From contig NZ_CP022985.1 of assembly GCF_003425985.1 (NCBI RefSeq), positions 1,401,501 to 1,465,500 of the forward strand: a stretch of DNA of 64,000 bases, given 5' to 3'. The DNA is from Mariniflexile sp. TRM1-10. GTDB taxonomy: Bacteria; Bacteroidota; Bacteroidia; Flavobacteriales; Flavobacteriaceae. This document shows, piece by piece, positions 3,751 through 62,474 of the stretch; the stretch's first letter is position 1, and the number at the start of each line of letters is the position of its first letter. The notes under the pieces were generated by a model. That model made no database searches. It was not told the DNA's origin and saw only the letters and a list, made by a program, of their open reading frames with translations. A program made the translations under genes and the position numbers.

Positions 3751-3751
3751 A

Positions 3752-3862
3752 TTTTTTAGTTGTTGGTTGTTGGCTGTTGGTTGTTAGCTGTTATATGTGG
3801 ATGTTAAATTTTTCATCTAAAAACTTTTAACCCATTAACTATCAACCACAAACCATCAACTA
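3752..3862 (-). repeat. Short-word inverted array in the sdhA-sdhB spacer
   Basis: The spacer has two opposed arms. Bases 3758-3793 repeat GTTGGTTGTTGGCTGTTGG-like words. Bases 3832-3862 hold the complementary type (ATCAACCACAAACCATCAAC). About 38 bases of A/T-rich sequence separate them, themselves showing GTTAAA/TTTAAC complementarity. The arms are similar but not exact complements, as if words had been added and lost. The sdhA stop codon lies in the outer end of the right arm. Confidence 0.7.
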
Positions 3863-15262: not shown

Positions 15263-15592
15263 ATGATAAAAGTTTCTGAAACAGCTAAGAAAAAAGTTAT
15301 CGAACTTATGCAAGAAGATGGCTATAATCCTGCTACCGACTATGTACGTGTTGGCGTTAAAAGCGGTGGTTGTTCTGGGCTATCTTACGATTTAAAGTTT
15401 GATAAAGAAAATCAAGAAGACGATAAAGTATTTGTAGATAATGACGTTAAAATTATTGTTGACAAAAAGAGTTTCCTTTACTTGATAGGGACTACTTTAG
15501 AATATTCTGGAGGATTAAACGGAACCGGATTCGTGTTTAACAACCCAAATGCAAATCGCACTTGTGGATGTGGCGAATCGTTTTCTCTTTAA
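15263..15592 (+). CDS. sufA: HesB/IscA-type Fe-S carrier, first gene of the suf operon
   Basis: This 109-residue A-type carrier holds the three conserved cysteines, C37 (SGGCSGLSY) and C101/C103 (CGCGESF), that bind a transient iron-sulfur cluster for delivery to apoproteins. Length and motifs fit the SufA/ErpA/IscA family. Naming it sufA rests on its place immediately upstream of sufBCDS. A word-array spacer follows directly. Confidence 0.88.
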   Translation: MIKVSETAKKKVIELMQEDGYNPATDYVRVGVKSGGCSGLSYDLKFDKENQEDDKVFVDNDVKIIVDKKSFLYLIGTTLEYSGGLNGTGFVFNNPNANRTCGCGESFSL

Positions 15593-15627
15593 GTTATAAA
15601 GTTTGAAAGTTAATAAGTTTTAAAGTA
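15593..15627. repeat. Left word-array arm before the four-helix-bundle gene
   Basis: GTTATAAAGTTTGAAAGTTA followed by ATAAGTTTTAAAGTA repeats a degenerate AAAGTT(T) word. Its first 11 bases (15593-15603) are the exact reverse complement of 15990-16000 in the right arm. Confidence 0.7.
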
Positions 15628-15628
15628 A

Positions 15629-15999
15629 ATGGCGAAATTTAATTCTTTTGAAGAAATAATATCATGGCAAAAGGCAAGAGAGTTAAACAAAGACATTTAT
15701 AATTTAATTATAGAGAATAAATATTTTAATAATGATTTTGGTTTAAGAGACCAAATAAGAAGGTCAAGCATTTCAATATCTTCAAACATAGCTGAAGGTT
15801 TTGAAGGGAGACCACTAAAGAGTTCATTCGCTTTTTATATATTGCTAAAGCTTCCTCAGGAGAGTTTCGCTCGCAACTATATTTAGCGTATGATATAAAT
15901 TATTTAAGTTCAGAAGAATTTGAAAAATTAAAGTTAAAAGTAAACGAAGTTTCAAAGTTAATTAGTGGTTTAATAAAGTACTTAAGCTCAACTTTATAA
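15629..15999 (+). pseudogene. Four-helix-bundle (S23/Avd-like) protein gene with a frameshift
   Basis: The open part starts MAKFNSFEEIISWQKARELN and reads on to SNIAEGFE, typical of the four-helix-bundle family linked to 23S rRNA intervening sequences and to the accessory protein of diversity-generating retroelements. After GFE (about base 15801) the frame is lost and stops at 15886. The +1 frame continues the family consensus: [20 protein letters not shown], then [16 protein letters not shown] and on to a stop at 15999. Loss of one A in a GAAAGGG run explains it; restoring it gives about 123 residues, the normal family length. The gene interrupts the suf operon between sufA and sufB and is bracketed by complementary word arrays. 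A sequencing error is the alternative. Confidence 0.85.
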
Positions 16000-16027
16000 C
16001 TTTTTACTTTACAACATTAATACTAAT
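15990..16027. repeat. Right word-array arm after the four-helix-bundle gene
   Basis: AACTTTATAACTTTTTACTT followed by TACAACATTAATACTAA repeats an AACTTT word, the complement of the left arm's AAAGTT. The last codons and stop of the four-helix-bundle frame lie inside it, and sufB starts one base after it. Confidence 0.7.
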
Positions 16028-16028
16028 T

Positions 16029-17477
16029 ATGAATAAATATACAGAAGACGATTTAAGAGAAGAGCTTAAAACCAAAGAATATGAATACGGATTTTATACT
16101 GATATAGCCTCCGACACATTTCCTATTGGTTTAAATGAAGATATTGTTCGTGCTATTTCCCTTAAAAAAGAAGAACCGGAATGGATGACCGAATGGCGTT
16201 TGGAAGCCTTTCGTGCTTGGGAAAAAATGATAGAGCCAGAATGGGCAAACGTACGTTATACAAAACCCGACTTTCAAGCCATCTCCTACTATTCTGCACC
16301 AAATAGCAAACCGAAATATGATAGTTTAGATGAAGTTGACCCCGAGTTATTGGCAACATTTGCTAAACTTGGCATTTCTTTAGATGAACAAAAAAAACTA
16401 TCAGGCGTCGCCATGGATGTGGTGGTTGATTCGGTTTCGGTGGCAACTACATTTAAGAAAACATTAGGCGAAAAAGGCATTATATTTTGTTCTATTTCTG
16501 AAGCATTGCGTGAGCATCCAGATTTAGTTAAAAAATACATTGGTACCGTTGTGCCTCAAAAAGACAATTTCTATGCTGCTTTAAACTCTGCCGTTTTTAG
16601 TGATGGCAGTTTCTGTTATATTCCAAAAGGGGTACGTTGCCCTATGGAACTTTCAACCTATTTTAGAATCAACCAAGCAGGAACTGGGCAGTTTGAACGC
16701 ACTTTAGTGGTTGCCGATGAAGGTAGTTATGTTAGTTACCTTGAAGGCTGTACAGCGCCGAGTCGTGATGAAAATCAATTACACGCAGCCGTAGTAGAGT
16801 TAATTGCTTTAGACGATGCAGAAATAAAATATTCAACAGTACAAAACTGGTATCCAGGAAATGCAGAAGGCAAAGGTGGTGTTTACAATTTTGTGACCAA
16901 ACGTGGTTTATGCGAAAAAAACGCCAAAATCTCATGGACCCAAGTAGAAACTGGTAGTGCCATTACCTGGAAATATCCTTCATGCGTTTTAAAAGGTGAT
17001 AATTCGGTTGGTGAATTTTACTCTATTGCTGTAACAAACAACCATCAACAAGCCGATACCGGAACGAAAATGATTCATTTAGGAAAAAACACCAAATCGA
17101 CCATCATTTCAAAAGGTATTTCAGCAGGAAAATCACAAAATAGTTACCGCGGATTGGTTAAAATAAGTCCGAATGCAGATAACGCCCGTAATTTTTCACA
17201 ATGCGATAGTTTGCTAATGGGCAACGAGTGTGGCGCACACACCTTCCCTTATATAGAAGCGAAAAATAAAACGGCAAAAATAGAACACGAAGCGACAACC
17301 AGTAAAATTGGTGAAGACCAGATTTTCTATTGCAACCAACGTGGTATTGATACCGAAAAAGCCATCGCCCTTATTGTAAACGGGTTTAGTAAAGAAGTAT
17401 TGAATAAACTTCCTATGGAGTTTGCTGTGGAAGCTCAAAAACTATTAGAAATAAGTTTAGAAGGCTCAGTAGGATAA
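16029..17477 (+). CDS. sufB: Fe-S cluster scaffold subunit SufB
   Basis: This 482-residue core scaffold subunit of the SufBC2D complex assembles Fe-S clusters with sulfur from SufS/SufE. The right-handed beta-helix region is evident, with family hallmarks [14 protein letters not shown] ([20 protein letters not shown] at about 197-216), YLEGCTAP near 238 and the C-terminal [17 protein letters not shown], where a conserved cysteine and glutamate serve assembly. The start ATG directly follows a word-array spacer. Cytoplasmic, co-transcribed with sufC. Confidence 0.96.
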
Positions 17478-17546: not shown

Positions 17547-18299
17547 ATGTTAAAAATTGAAAATTTACACGCAAGTGTTGAGGATAAAGCCATTTTAAGA
17601 GGCATAAATTTAGAAGTAAAAGCAGGAGAAGTACATGCTATTATGGGACCAAACGGTTCTGGAAAAAGCACGTTGGCCTCAGTAATTGCCGGAAAAGAAG
17701 AATACGAAGTAACTGATGGAAATATCTTTTTTAATGGAGAGGACATCGACGAATTAGCAGCCGAAGAGCGTGCGCACAAAGGCGTGTTTTTATCATTCCA
17801 ATACCCTGTTGAAATCCCAGGAGTATCGGTTACCAACTTCATGAAAACGGCCATTAATGAAACCCGTAAGGCGCAAGGTCTAGAAGAAATGCCTGCTAAA
17901 GATATGCTGAAGTTAATTCGTGAAAAATCGGAGTTGTTGGAAATTGATAGAAAATTTTTATCACGTTCTTTAAACGAAGGCTTTTCTGGTGGTGAAAAGA
18001 AACGTAACGAGATCTTTCAAATGGCCATGCTAGAACCTAAATTAGCCATTCTGGACGAAACAGATTCTGGTTTGGATATTGATGCACTTCGTATTGTAGC
18101 CAACGGCGTTAACAAACTTAAAAGTAAGGACAACGCTGTTATCGTCATTACACATTACCAACGGTTGTTAGATTACATCGTTCCAGATTTTGTCCATGTT
18201 TTGTACGATGGCCGTATTGTAAAATCTGGCGGTAAAGAATTGGCACATGAGCTTGAAGAAAAAGGTTACGACTGGATTAAAGAAGAAGTGAACGCGTAA
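17547..18299 (+). CDS. sufC: SufC ATPase of the SUF scaffold
   Basis: This 250-residue ABC-type ATPase drives conformational changes of SufBC2D. Walker A GPNGSGKST is at 34-42, a Q-loop lies in FLSFQYPVEIPG, the signature is SRSLNEGFSGGEKKR near 142-156, Walker B LAILDETDSGLD is near 170, and the switch histidine is in ITHYQRLL. No membrane domain partner is present, as expected for SufC. Confidence 0.96.
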   Translation: MLKIENLHASVEDKAILRGINLEVKAGEVHAIMGPNGSGKSTLASVIAGKEEYEVTDGNIFFNGEDIDELAAEERAHKGVFLSFQYPVEIPGVSVTNFMKTAINETRKAQGLEEMPAKDMLKLIREKSELLEIDRKFLSRSLNEGFSGGEKKRNEIFQMAMLEPKLAILDETDSGLDIDALRIVANGVNKLKSKDNAVIVITHYQRLLDYIVPDFVHVLYDGRIVKSGGKELAHELEEKGYDWIKEEVNA

Positions 18300-18307
18300 A
18301 AACAATC

Positions 18308-18390
18308 AGTTAAAAAGTAAAAAGTTCGTAAAAGTTTAAAAGTTGGATTTCCCCAACTTTTTACTTTCAAACTTTTAAACATTTCAACTC
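18308..18390. repeat. Long imperfect inverted word array in the sufC-sufD spacer
   Basis: The left arm 18308-18346 repeats AAAAGTT-like words and the right arm 18353-18390 repeats AACTTTT-like words. The core AAAAGTTGG (18338-18346) and CCAACTTTT (18353-18361) pair perfectly around a 6-base loop; outer words pair in several registers. It fills nearly the whole 97-bp spacer. Confidence 0.75.
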
Positions 18391-18396
18391 AATAAA

Positions 18397-23469: not shown

Positions 23470-23473
23470 GATT

Positions 23474-23555
23474 AGAGGTTAAAGTTTATGAGTTTATTCA
23501 GCTAAATCACGTTTAAACCATAAACTTATAAACCCATAAACCCATAAACTTATAA
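23474..23555. repeat. Word array in the sufE-sufT spacer
   Basis: The left part 23474-23501 (AGAGGTTAAAGTTTATGAG, TTTATTCAG) and the right part 23511-23555 (repeats of CCATAAAC and TTATAAAC) are complementary word arrays: GTTTAT against ATAAAC. The right part contains four ATAAAC words in 32 bases. Confidence 0.72.
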
Positions 23556-23558
23556 AAA

Positions 23559-24466: not shown

Positions 24467-24501
24467 TCTTAATTGTGACTTCACAATAAAAACCTGTCTT
24501 A

Positions 24502-24710
24502 GAGACTGTTTAAATTTTGTTTTTGGAATATTTTATAGGGCATTTTTTTGTCAGACAGGGCCGAGCGTATAAAAAAGGTCTGGGAGACCTTTTTAGCGAA
24601 GGAGCCAGGCTGCCGCGAGGGAGAAGTACATAGCTATGGACCGAAAAATAGCTGAAGTATGGCGGAAAAAGGCACATAAAAGAGCCAAAGGATAAAACTT
24701 AAACAGTCTC
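24502..24710. mobile_element. 209-bp MITE-like element with GAGACTGTTTAA ends and TTA target duplication
   Basis: Terminal inverted repeats GAGACTGTTTAAATTTT at the left and AAAACTTAAACAGTCTC at the right match over 17 positions with one mismatch, then weakly for about 8 more. TTA flanks both sides (24499-24501, 24711-24713), a 3-bp duplication. The interior is richer in GC than its surroundings and holds a perfect hairpin AAAAAGGTCT-GGG-AGACCTTTTT (24572-24594). No coding potential is seen. Ends and duplication recall IS5-like transposons, so a non-autonomous derivative is inferred. It lies just past the DUF2480 stop and its hairpin could terminate suf transcripts. Confidence 0.72.
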
Positions 24711-24738
24711 TTAATCTGTAATTCTTTTAAGACATAAA

Positions 24739-24769
24739 TTGTAGCTTGTTTAATTTAAAATTATATTTG
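24739..24769 (+). promoter_or_regulatory. Promoter of the DUF3078 gene, upstream of an inserted MITE
   Basis: TTG (24739-24741), 20 bases, TATATTTG (24762-24769) is a full consensus match. The predicted start site, about 7 bases on, coincides with the ATT at 24774-24776 that flanks the next element, so transcripts should carry that element in their leader. Confidence 0.72.
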
Positions 24770-24776
24770 CATCATT

Positions 24777-24936
24777 GAACTCATTTTGACTTTTTCTATT
24801 TCCTAAAAAATGGCTAAAATTTATACATCTTTCGTTACTTTTTTTATGCGTAGCGGTGCTATGCCTTGCAAAAAGTGCCTCATCTGCACAAATTTTATCT
24901 CATTTTCGGTTAAAAACAAAAAGTAAAGATGAGTTC
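24777..24936. mobile_element. 160-bp MITE-like element, family 2 copy 1
   Basis: The ends GAACTCATTTTGACTTTTT and AAAAAGTAAAGATGAGTTC are inverted repeats, and ATT flanks both sides (24774-24776 and 24937-24939). The interior (GGCTAAAATT, TAGCGGTGCTA hairpin, AAAAAGTGCCTCATCT, ATTTTATCTCATTTTCGGTT) matches the copy at 37097-37276 throughout. No open frame is seen. It ends 21 bases before the DUF3078 start codon. Confidence 0.78.
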
Positions 24937-24957
24937 ATTCCATAAACACTAAAAAAA

Positions 24958-25884: not shown

Positions 25885-25904
25885 CCCATTTCATTTATAA
25901 AAAT

Positions 25905-26046
25905 CAAAAGAGGCTATCTTTTAAAAGTCCTTTAAATTTAATTTGTCTGGTTGAGCTTGTCGAAACCGATATTGATTACCAGTAAGTTAAAACATTTCGA
26001 CAAGTTCAATATGAACTAGACTTTTTAGAATACAGTCTCTTTTTTT
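25905..26046. repeat. About 140-bp palindromic element between convergent genes, copy A
   Basis: The core is an inverted pair, GTTGAGCTTGTCGAAA (25950-25965) and TTTCGACAAGTTCAAT (25995-26010), around CCGATATTGATTACCAGTAAG. Outer flanks CAAAAGAGGCT and AGTCTCTTTTTTT are roughly complementary. The reverse complement of 36470-36607 matches over most of the length. It starts 20 bases past one stop and ends 17 bases before the other, so it occupies the whole convergent gap and probably acts as a bidirectional terminator. Confidence 0.78.
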
Positions 26047-26063
26047 ACATAAACTGTAACCTT

Positions 26064-36452: not shown

Positions 36453-36469
36453 TTTTACTAATATATAAA

Positions 36470-36607
36470 ACAAAAAGAGGCTAAAAAGTCTAATTCTATG
36501 TCATATCGGAGCTTATCAAAATATTTTAACTTACTGTTAATCAATATCGGTTTCGACAAGCTCAACCTGACAAATTAAATTTAAAGGACTTTTTAGCCTC
36601 TTTTTGT
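36470..36607. repeat. 138-bp element with perfect 21-bp terminal inverted repeats, copy B
   Basis: Bases 36470-36490 and 36587-36607 are exact reverse complements (core AAAGAGGCTAAAAAGTC). The interior, read on the minus strand, matches copy A (25905-26046) nearly base for base from GTCCTTTAAATTTAATTTGT through CGAAACCGATATTGATTA. It lies 17 bases past the nuclease stop and ends 2 bases before the convergent gene's stop, so it is the whole spacer and a likely bidirectional terminator. Confidence 0.82.
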
Positions 36608-36609
36608 TT

Positions 36610-37047: not shown

Positions 37048-37096
37048 GAATTAAATGATTTAAAATTTATAATAACAAATGTAGCAATTTAAAATA

Positions 37097-37276
37097 GAAC
37101 TCATCTTGACTTTTTCTATTTCCTAAAACCTGCCTGCCGGCAGGCAGGAATGGCTAAAATTCGTCTATATTTCGTTTATTTATTTATACTTAGCTCTGCT
37201 ATGCCTTTCAAAAAGCGCCTCATCTATACAAATTTTATCTCATTTTCGGTTAAAAACAAAAAGTCAAGATGGGTTC
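37097..37276. mobile_element. 180-bp MITE-like element, family 2 copy 2
   Basis: The ends GAACTCATCTTGACTTTTT and AAAAAGTCAAGATGGGTTC are inverted repeats with one mismatch. ATA flanks both sides (37094-37096, 37277-37279). The interior matches copy 1 at 24777-24936, but a 20-bp palindrome at 37129-37148 is additional, explaining the 20-bp greater length. Confidence 0.8.
37129..37148. repeat. Perfect 20-bp GC-rich palindrome nested in the MITE
   Basis: CCTGCCTGCCGGCAGGCAGG is fully self-complementary and nearly all G+C inside a genome of low GC. It interrupts the element after CCTAAAA, where copy 1 reads on directly. I recognise this word as a frequent dispersed palindrome in Flavobacteriaceae. 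Confidence 0.75.
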
Positions 37277-37284
37277 ATATAAAA

Positions 37285-37308
37285 AAACCGCTTCAGTTGA
37301 AGCGGTTT
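37285..37308 (-). terminator. Terminator after atpC
   Basis: AAACCGCTTC (37285-37294), AGTT, GAAGCGGTTT (37299-37308) is a perfect 10-bp stem with a T run on the minus strand (complement of 37281-37284 and beyond). Confidence 0.87.
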
Positions 37309-37335
37309 CATATTATATGAGTAATAAGATAATGT

Positions 37336-62352: not shown

Positions 62353-62469
62353 GGGTTAAAGGGTTAGAAAGTTATAAGGTTAAAAGGTTAGAAAGTGTTT
62401 CAAGCGATAACCAACAACCAAAAGAGGTTATGTGGTAAATCGTCAATCGTAATTCGTAATTCGTAAATT
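62353..62469. repeat. Mixed word arrays in the dksA-lspA spacer
   Basis: Three blocks follow one another: GGTTAAAGGGTTAGAAAGTT-type words (62354-62398), AACCAACAACC (62410-62420), and a CGTAATT array (TCGTAATTCGTAATTCGTAA at 62449-62468). The GGTT and AACC blocks are complementary in kind. The spacer is fully made of such words after the terminator. Confidence 0.7.
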
Positions 62470-62474
62470 TATTT

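Follow-up and report, generated by a model that had tools for sequence, protein, structure and literature searches.

Convergent arrays of short words around S23/Avd-like genes, followed from a broken copy in the suf operon of Mariniflexile sp. TRM1-10

A broken gene between sufA and sufB

In Mariniflexile sp. TRM1-10, a broken gene of the S23/Avd-like four-helix-bundle family lies between sufA and sufB, enclosed by two arrays of short words that are inverted with respect to each other. The window, that is the whole stretch of DNA analysed, comprises 64,000 nt (GCF_003425985.1, NZ_CP022985.1, positions 1,401,501-1,465,500), and the genome is denoted G000 below. Profile matches place the two host genes on the plus strand, a sufA-type gene upstream (15263-15592) and sufB downstream (16029-17477); sufC (17547-18299) follows from the list of open reading frames (ORFs) and from profile matches.

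The inserted gene, also on the plus strand, is read in two frames. Its first piece (15629-15823, positions 1-57 of the PF05635 profile) lies in the frame of the start codon, open from 15629 to 15886, and its second piece (15802-15999, profile positions 51-106) continues in another frame to a TAA stop at 15997-15999, as judged by profile and translation; the genome-wide profile search returned the same two pieces. The PF05635 match, at window positions 15629-15883, reaches 58.2 bits against a cut-off of 33.8, and TIGR02436 matches this first piece with 54.2 bits against a cut-off of 24. A first-pass annotation made from the letters alone had recognised an S23/Avd-like gene bearing the SNIAEGFE motif and had described it as frame-broken and reading to 15999; the motif is present and both statements are borne out.

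The 5' arm (15591-15628, plus strand), an array of AAAGTT-type words, extends from the sufA stop codon to the start codon of the S23-like gene, and the 3' arm (15990-16015, plus strand) carries AACTTT and TACTTT words in inverted orientation. A complement search found an exact match of 13 nt between them, 15591-15603 with 15990-16002: the complementary AAAGTT/AACTTT arms had been correctly noticed at first pass, and only their length, given as 11 nt, has to be amended. PF05635 is the sole Pfam match between the arms, where neither a transposase nor a recognisable enzyme is encoded. The arms contain no GGG run, and the repeat is degenerate at this locus.

The comparison of strains at the sufA-sufB junction, proposed at first pass, found an insertion at the matching place in the congener G002, with an intact ORF of 123 amino acids (127.5 bits) and similar arms, and a junction devoid of the gene in congeners G001, G003, G004 and G005. 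Judged against the G002 sequence, the frame break is genuine, and a sequencing error in G000 may be its source. No target-site duplication was seen at this junction, the congener spacers being too diverged. As stand-alone proof the suf locus was set aside as unconvincing, with an arm score of 20, a z of 1.7 and rank 4 of 39.

Matching flanks across the gene family

A whole-genome profile search gave 22 PF05635 matches in G000, counted as 20 genes. Inspection of the flanks revealed that most of these copies have a short word of their own, differing from copy to copy, which recurs upstream of the gene and returns in inverted form downstream. We scored this arrangement with a matrix in which upstream flanks are compared with reversed downstream flanks, own pairs being set against mismatched pairs (20 x 20 in G000). 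The own-flank mean was 25.25 versus 13.65 for mismatched pairs (standard deviation, sd, 3.59), and the own pair ranked first for 9 of the 20 genes and second for 7.

The comparison was extended to 168 non-redundant copies in Flavobacteriaceae (20 from G000, 40 from five congeners and 108 from other genera; 30 are broken), after removal of 8 duplicates and 7 copies near an end; the family-sample loci are those among the matches listed plus 80 further places, best-scoring first. Own flanks scored 21.57 against 13.28 for mismatched ones (sd 3.23). The permuted means, 5000 in all, peaked at 14.27, and 89 copies exceeded the 95th percentile of mismatched pairs, 30 of them the 99th. Neither control had any such effect: 98 size-matched ORFs of 80-174 amino acids gave 13.91 versus 14.02, with 4 above the 95th percentile, and 37 window ORFs of at least 150 amino acids gave 15.62 versus 15.22, with 2 above it. 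An enrichment of arrays around four-helix-bundle genes, which the first-pass annotation had asked to be looked for, is strong in the family and absent from the size-matched controls. Arm pairing is weak at the suf locus alone and strong over the family.

Anatomy and orientation of the elements

Strong periodicity (at least 75% self-match over 28 nt) was detected in 207 of 616 arms, with a lag of 7 nt in 159 arms, 8 nt in 35, 9 nt in 7, 6 nt in 3, 4 nt in 2 and 10 nt in 1; in the accompanying control it was found in 2 of at most 308 segments, short loci having yielded none. The words are mostly 7-mers that differ between genes, and their lineages include CAGT, AAGTGCCTAAAGTT, GAAGACA and GGGAATA types. 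Constant terminal inverted repeats are lacking, in that words vary between copies and mismatched flanks score like background. The arms have a polarity: when each arm is read towards the gene, 194 of 226 pairs have more G than C and 25 have more C than G. Upstream arms contain 21.4% G and 7.5% C. The lengths of the arrays on the two sides of a gene are weakly correlated (rho 0.28, n=320, 9 loci counted twice). At one locus of G000 (L009), the 3' array and its surroundings are tandemly duplicated after the gene.

Orientation with respect to the neighbouring genes is strongly biased. Of the 168 Flavobacteriaceae copies, 159 run in sense with both neighbours and 8 with one, none runs antisense to the two, and 1 is unclear; the five cases scored as antisense to the first and in sense with the second neighbour include the two suf copies, which are artefacts of the neighbour rule. 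Ordinary gene triples (n=308) comprise 161 in sense with both, 115 mixed and 32 antisense to both. At 107 other loci, 96 genes run in sense with both neighbours, 7 are mixed, 3 run antisense to both and 1 is unclear; the 45 non-Bacteroidota loci described below have a weaker bias (27, 11, 6 and 1, respectively).

This bias speaks for an intervening sequence acting at the RNA level, whose arms would pair in the operon transcript, RNase III cutting the stem and freeing the gene from the polycistronic mRNA, much as the S23-coding insert leaves 23S rRNA, and whose protein would bind its own stem. Even broken copies are in sense with both neighbours in 29 of 30 cases, and the predicted RNA duplex is stronger for own than for mismatched arms (-46.6 versus -32.5 kcal/mol). 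However, there is no excess of G-U pairs (178, against 254 A-C mismatches), and the A-rich sense strand confounds this count; since A-C outnumbers G-U, G-U tolerance was discarded as a sign of an RNA stem. Moreover, a plain stem requires neither tandem 7-mers nor a G-rich-inward polarity, and outside Bacteroidota the sense bias is weaker, yet the arms persist. Where neighbours are not co-directional, 12 of 17 loci keep arms above the 95th percentile. An RNA-level intervening sequence stands as a possible but rather unlikely account.

Words follow the protein lineage

To relate words to proteins, we scored each upstream flank against the downstream flank of a different gene, a design in which common neighbours add nothing to the score. 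Among pairs at different loci that lack similar flanking sequence and whose proteins are at least 65% identical (144 pairs, from 275 elements), the mean was 17.99 versus 13.00 under permutation (sd 0.27, maximum 14.10 in 2000), and it remained at 17.60 once cyanobacteria were removed. One lineage illustrates the association: its protein pairs are 73-80% identical and always accompanied by CAGT words, between neighbours as unlike, in Pfam terms, as SRP54 and THF dehydrogenase-cyclohydrolase, 3HCDH and DUF1015, RuvC and a radical-SAM protein, or DHFR and an acyl transferase. At orthologous junctions, words are retained across genera.

The gene is under purifying selection, with a median dN/dS of 0.12 over the 21 of 28 independent orthologous pairs that had a finite dS below 3; the protein must therefore matter to something. 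Concerted evolution of both arms after a species split was considered and found not significant (53 independent orthologous pairs, own versus cross-genome difference +1.00, p 0.13).

Distribution beyond Flavobacteriaceae

PF05635 occurs in at least 45 of the 60 sampled genomes of the family and in at least 116 of 148 in the phylum sample. Scanning named genomes yielded 80 loci, and from the Bacteroidota and non-Bacteroidota sets (66, 29 and 12 loci) 11 entries near an end were left out. Own flanks scored 20.71 versus 13.84 at the 66 further Bacteroidota loci and 19.17 versus 12.59 at the 29 loci of the phylum sample. A larger non-Bacteroidota set of 45 loci came from 11 genomes searched, 5 of 50 loci having been dropped (two with N, three near an end). 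It scored 26.42 versus 12.06, with a permuted maximum of 16.11 and 38 loci above the 95th percentile; the set retains two weak matches that are probably not members (L364 and L373) and a long inverted duplication that scores 98 (L393). Loci above a threshold of 18 numbered 13 of 13 in Cyanobacteria, 13 of 16 in Peregrinibacteria, 5 of 6 in Desulfobacteraceae, 3 of 3 in Chlorobiota-labelled genomes, 3 of 3 in an unclassified genome, 1 of 2 in Anaerolineae and 0 of 2 in Desulfuromonadales.

Two genomes stand out by their number of PF05635 matches, fragments included: 21 in a Peregrinibacteria genome of 1.1 Mb (G218), which is very dense for a small genome, and 25 in a Desulfobacteraceae genome of 4.4 Mb (G215). 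Insertion in 23S rRNA was checked at 20 non-Bacteroidota loci and rejected, no rRNA and two tRNAs only having been found.

Empty sites, remnants and gene-free hairpins

Comparison of congeners by eye at locus L009 revealed graded states of one site: gene and arms in G000; the start and the end of the gene in G003, flanked by words on either side; an end fragment and the 3' array in G002; at most a trace in G005; and nothing in G001 and G004. At L016, the site is empty in G001 and G005, where stop and start codons touch or nearly so, and G004 retains one word of the 3' array. The elements thus decay to gene-free arrays, and since gene loss proceeds stepwise and spares the arrays, at least some gene-free arrays are remnants. 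The first-pass suggestion that such arrays could be remnants is supported by this one graded site, and the sufC-sufD spacer is consistent with it.

The clearest gene-free word hairpin of the window occupies that spacer (18300-18396): a hairpin scan delimited a 5' arm of AAAAGT/AAAGTT words (18308-18346) and a 3' arm of AACTTT words (18353-18389), both on the plus strand. G002 has a gene-free AAAGTT hairpin at the same place, G003 a broken gene with TTCAAAG-type words, and G001, G004 and G005 have CAGT/ACTG words; among the 25 family genomes whose spacer could be read, inspection by eye showed CAGT-type words in 8. Genes of the family are present at sufC-sufD in G003, G032, G033, G043 and G063, and at sufA-sufB in G000, G002 and G012. 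A tree joins the sufA-sufB copy to the one at sufC-sufD in G033, which belongs to a different genus, with a support of 91/84 that does not reach the program's star; the two are 64% identical, and the 5' flank of the G033 gene likewise has AAAGTT words. This grouping suggests that copies changed junction within the suf operon. We also considered that CAGT arrays might be served in trans by a CAGT-type gene, and rejected it: G005 has such an array at sufC-sufD, and its lone PF05635 match is flanked by other words.

A recent expansion was likewise discarded, as 1 of 293 same-genome aligned pairs reached 70% identity and 9 reached 60%. The sole same-genome pair above 70% (L388 and L390 of G215, 82% identical) has the word TCAAGG in common and some shared sequence beyond the 5' array, and is possibly a recent copy.

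Two further gene-free word hairpins were seen in the window, neither with an assigned strand: one with GTTGTTGG and CCAC..CAAC words between two minus-strand genes (3751-3859), from the hairpin scan, and one with GTTTATGAG and CATAAAC words (23470-23558), which failed a stricter filter. Over 464 kb, the hairpin filter was passed by 7 of 239 intergenic regions, one of them resembling another repeat type. That word hairpins occur without the gene, together with the weak correlation of array lengths, could point to neutral repeats: slippage and hairpin-templated repair would build such hairpins where the genes of an operon meet, sites that the S23-like gene would simply tolerate or favour. This is improbable, as words track the protein lineage to other loci, comparable small genes have no such arms and the anatomy recurs across several phyla.

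Other repeats in the window and the sufB-sufC spacer

By eye, two types of repeat were recognised in addition to the word arrays. A palindromic repeat some 150 bp long, resembling a miniature inverted-repeat transposable element (AAAAGAGGCT...GTCGAAACCGATATTGAT...) and unrelated to the word arrays, is present in two copies inverted to each other, at 25885-26063 and 36453-36609. A second intergenic repeat (GAACTCAT.TTGACTTTTTCTATTTCC...GGTTAAAAACAAAAAGT) occurs twice, at 24467-24957 and 37048-37335. At 62353-62474 there are one-sided arrays of GGTTAAAA-type and TCGTAATTCG-type words, for which no partner was recognised. The sufB-sufC spacer exceeds 350 nt in 27 of 29 other family genomes (L181-L209) and measures 42-95 nt in G000 and its five congeners; the long spacers, where printed, often start a short lipoprotein-like frame.

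Discussion

Own-flank matching, words linked to the protein lineage, selection and stepwise loss together argue that gene and arms act as one unit. The first-pass annotation had supposed as much, and the claim stands: own flanks far outscore mismatched ones, and proteins at least 65% identical share words at other loci. We consider the best explanation, with a probability of roughly 55%, to be a compact element in which an S23/Avd-like gene is bounded by convergent arrays of a private word that its protein recognises. The protein would act as an oligomer (the relatives of solved structure identified by sequence, 2gsc and 2rld, both have five chains in their entries), binding the repeated word as a duplex at both ends and bridging the two arrays. 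The element, sitting at operon junctions, would be read from the host operon transcript and would, on rare occasions, be copied with its arms to new junctions; where the gene is lost, the arrays would persist for some time in the form of hairpins. The sufA-sufB copy would be a recently broken member, probably kin to the sufC-sufD copies of other genomes.

In single-stranded RNA, the two inverted arms would present different sequences to the protein, and the target should therefore be a duplex, either DNA or a transcript stem. Polarity, tandem units and the presence of arms outside operons favour DNA, and sense orientation favours RNA; we place a DNA target ahead of an RNA stem, at modest odds.

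Several observations weigh against this explanation. Four of the 20 copies in G000 fall below rank 2 (the suf gene, L019, at 4; L007 at 6; L011 at 16; L020 at 21), 79 of the 168 family copies fail the 95th percentile, so that about half miss the single-locus threshold, and 409 of 616 arms fail the strict periodicity test. The first 12 non-Bacteroidota loci scored 24.58 versus 14.15, below a permuted maximum of 28.75, the result of words common to two cyanobacterial loci. At 50-65% protein identity, the link between word and protein has nearly vanished (13.33 versus 13.01, permuted maximum 13.37), and dS is near saturation in many of the pairs used for dN/dS. At orthologous loci with proteins 80-90% identical, the own flank beat the cross-genome flank in only 3 of 23 cases; over all orthologous loci compared, own flanks match no better than cross-genome ones, which gives no sign of concerted evolution of the arms. 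Finally, few copies within one genome are recent (1 of 293 aligned pairs at 70% identity or above), and neither movement nor a target-site duplication was seen, the spacers of empty sites having diverged too far, or being too short, to reveal a duplication. The proposal that the unit is mobile is supported only indirectly, by the same lineage and words between unrelated neighbours and by empty sites, and no movement was seen.

Among known systems, the closest by protein are the 23S rRNA intervening-sequence proteins (PF05635, TIGR02436). The family is the same and complementary ends surround the gene, as found over 13 nt at the suf locus and at family level. However, the suf element lies between protein genes, in a window without any Rfam match, and its ends are tandem arrays of element-specific words. 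Transposons with terminal inverted repeats and insertion sequences differ in having a transposase and constant ends, both lacking here. In repetitive extragenic palindrome systems with their associated tyrosine transposases (REP-RAYT), a single gene is associated with its own repeats and many gene-free copies exist. The likeness lies in that association, and the difference in the suf locus having no RAYT-type enzyme domain, only PF05635.

One report relates Avd of diversity-generating retroelements to PF05635 in fold and sequence family (PMC10053308), and the arrays resemble repeated short additions; an Avd-like protein might accordingly help to write them within a reverse-transcriptase-driven system. 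Yet the only RVT_1 match of G000 lies 1.3 Mb from the gene and G004 has none despite 11 PF05635 matches, so that dependence on a reverse transcriptase was not borne out. No template or variable repeat was recognised at the suf locus, with no dedicated search made. Such a system is very improbable, and the first-pass idea of a sequence-generating unit is unsupported on the same reverse-transcriptase evidence. The congener G003 has ten nearly equal PF00078 reverse-transcriptase matches; other congeners have one or two, where they have such matches at all.

Heptanucleotide repeats have long been described in heterocystous cyanobacteria. Convergent arrays of GGGAATC in Xanthomonas and of GGGGA(C/T)T in Nostoc, with 70 paired cases in X. 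campestris and no function assigned, share with the elements described here their 7-nt units, paired convergent arrangement and preference for positions between aligned ORFs (PMC4692102), features also found in the anatomy and polarity of the family. Cyanobacterial loci of S23/Avd-like genes have GGGAATA, GGGAACA and other arrays, and a PF05635 protein of solved structure is listed as XCC0516. The accessible part of that report makes no mention of S23 or four-helix proteins, and the suf arms differ in lacking G-runs, so that quadruplexes cannot be the common theme. The TAACTGA repeats of Beggiatoaceae, Cyanobacteria and Bacteroidetes are intergenic 7-mers near start codons; they are direct rather than inverted, and neither four-helix proteins nor S23 are mentioned in the accessible part of their description (PMC4679880). 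Elsewhere, a 23S rRNA intervening-sequence protein is named in a figure legend on CRISPR adaptation modules (PMC10910872), and PF05635-type genes are merely listed (PMC8700078, PMC5787105). A literature search restricted to sources other than subscription papers and preprints found no published link between the S23/Avd-like gene family and such word arrays. The parts are known; their combination, a gene between private convergent arrays, matches no system that we can name.

A broader possibility, which we advance tentatively, is that S23/Avd-like proteins form a large family of modules recognising short-word duplexes, with targets rewired many times and each module borne by an element that maintains its own word in arrays at either end, and that the unexplained heptamer repeats of Cyanobacteria, Xanthomonas and Bacteroidota are their sites and footprints. 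The S23/Avd-like family has had no settled function outside 23S rRNA, and heptamer arrays are listed as a puzzle (PMC4692102). Tying the gene family to the arrays turns both into a testable question, namely whether each protein binds its own word. If it does, these elements would constitute a natural set of small proteins with many short targets, each written next to its gene.
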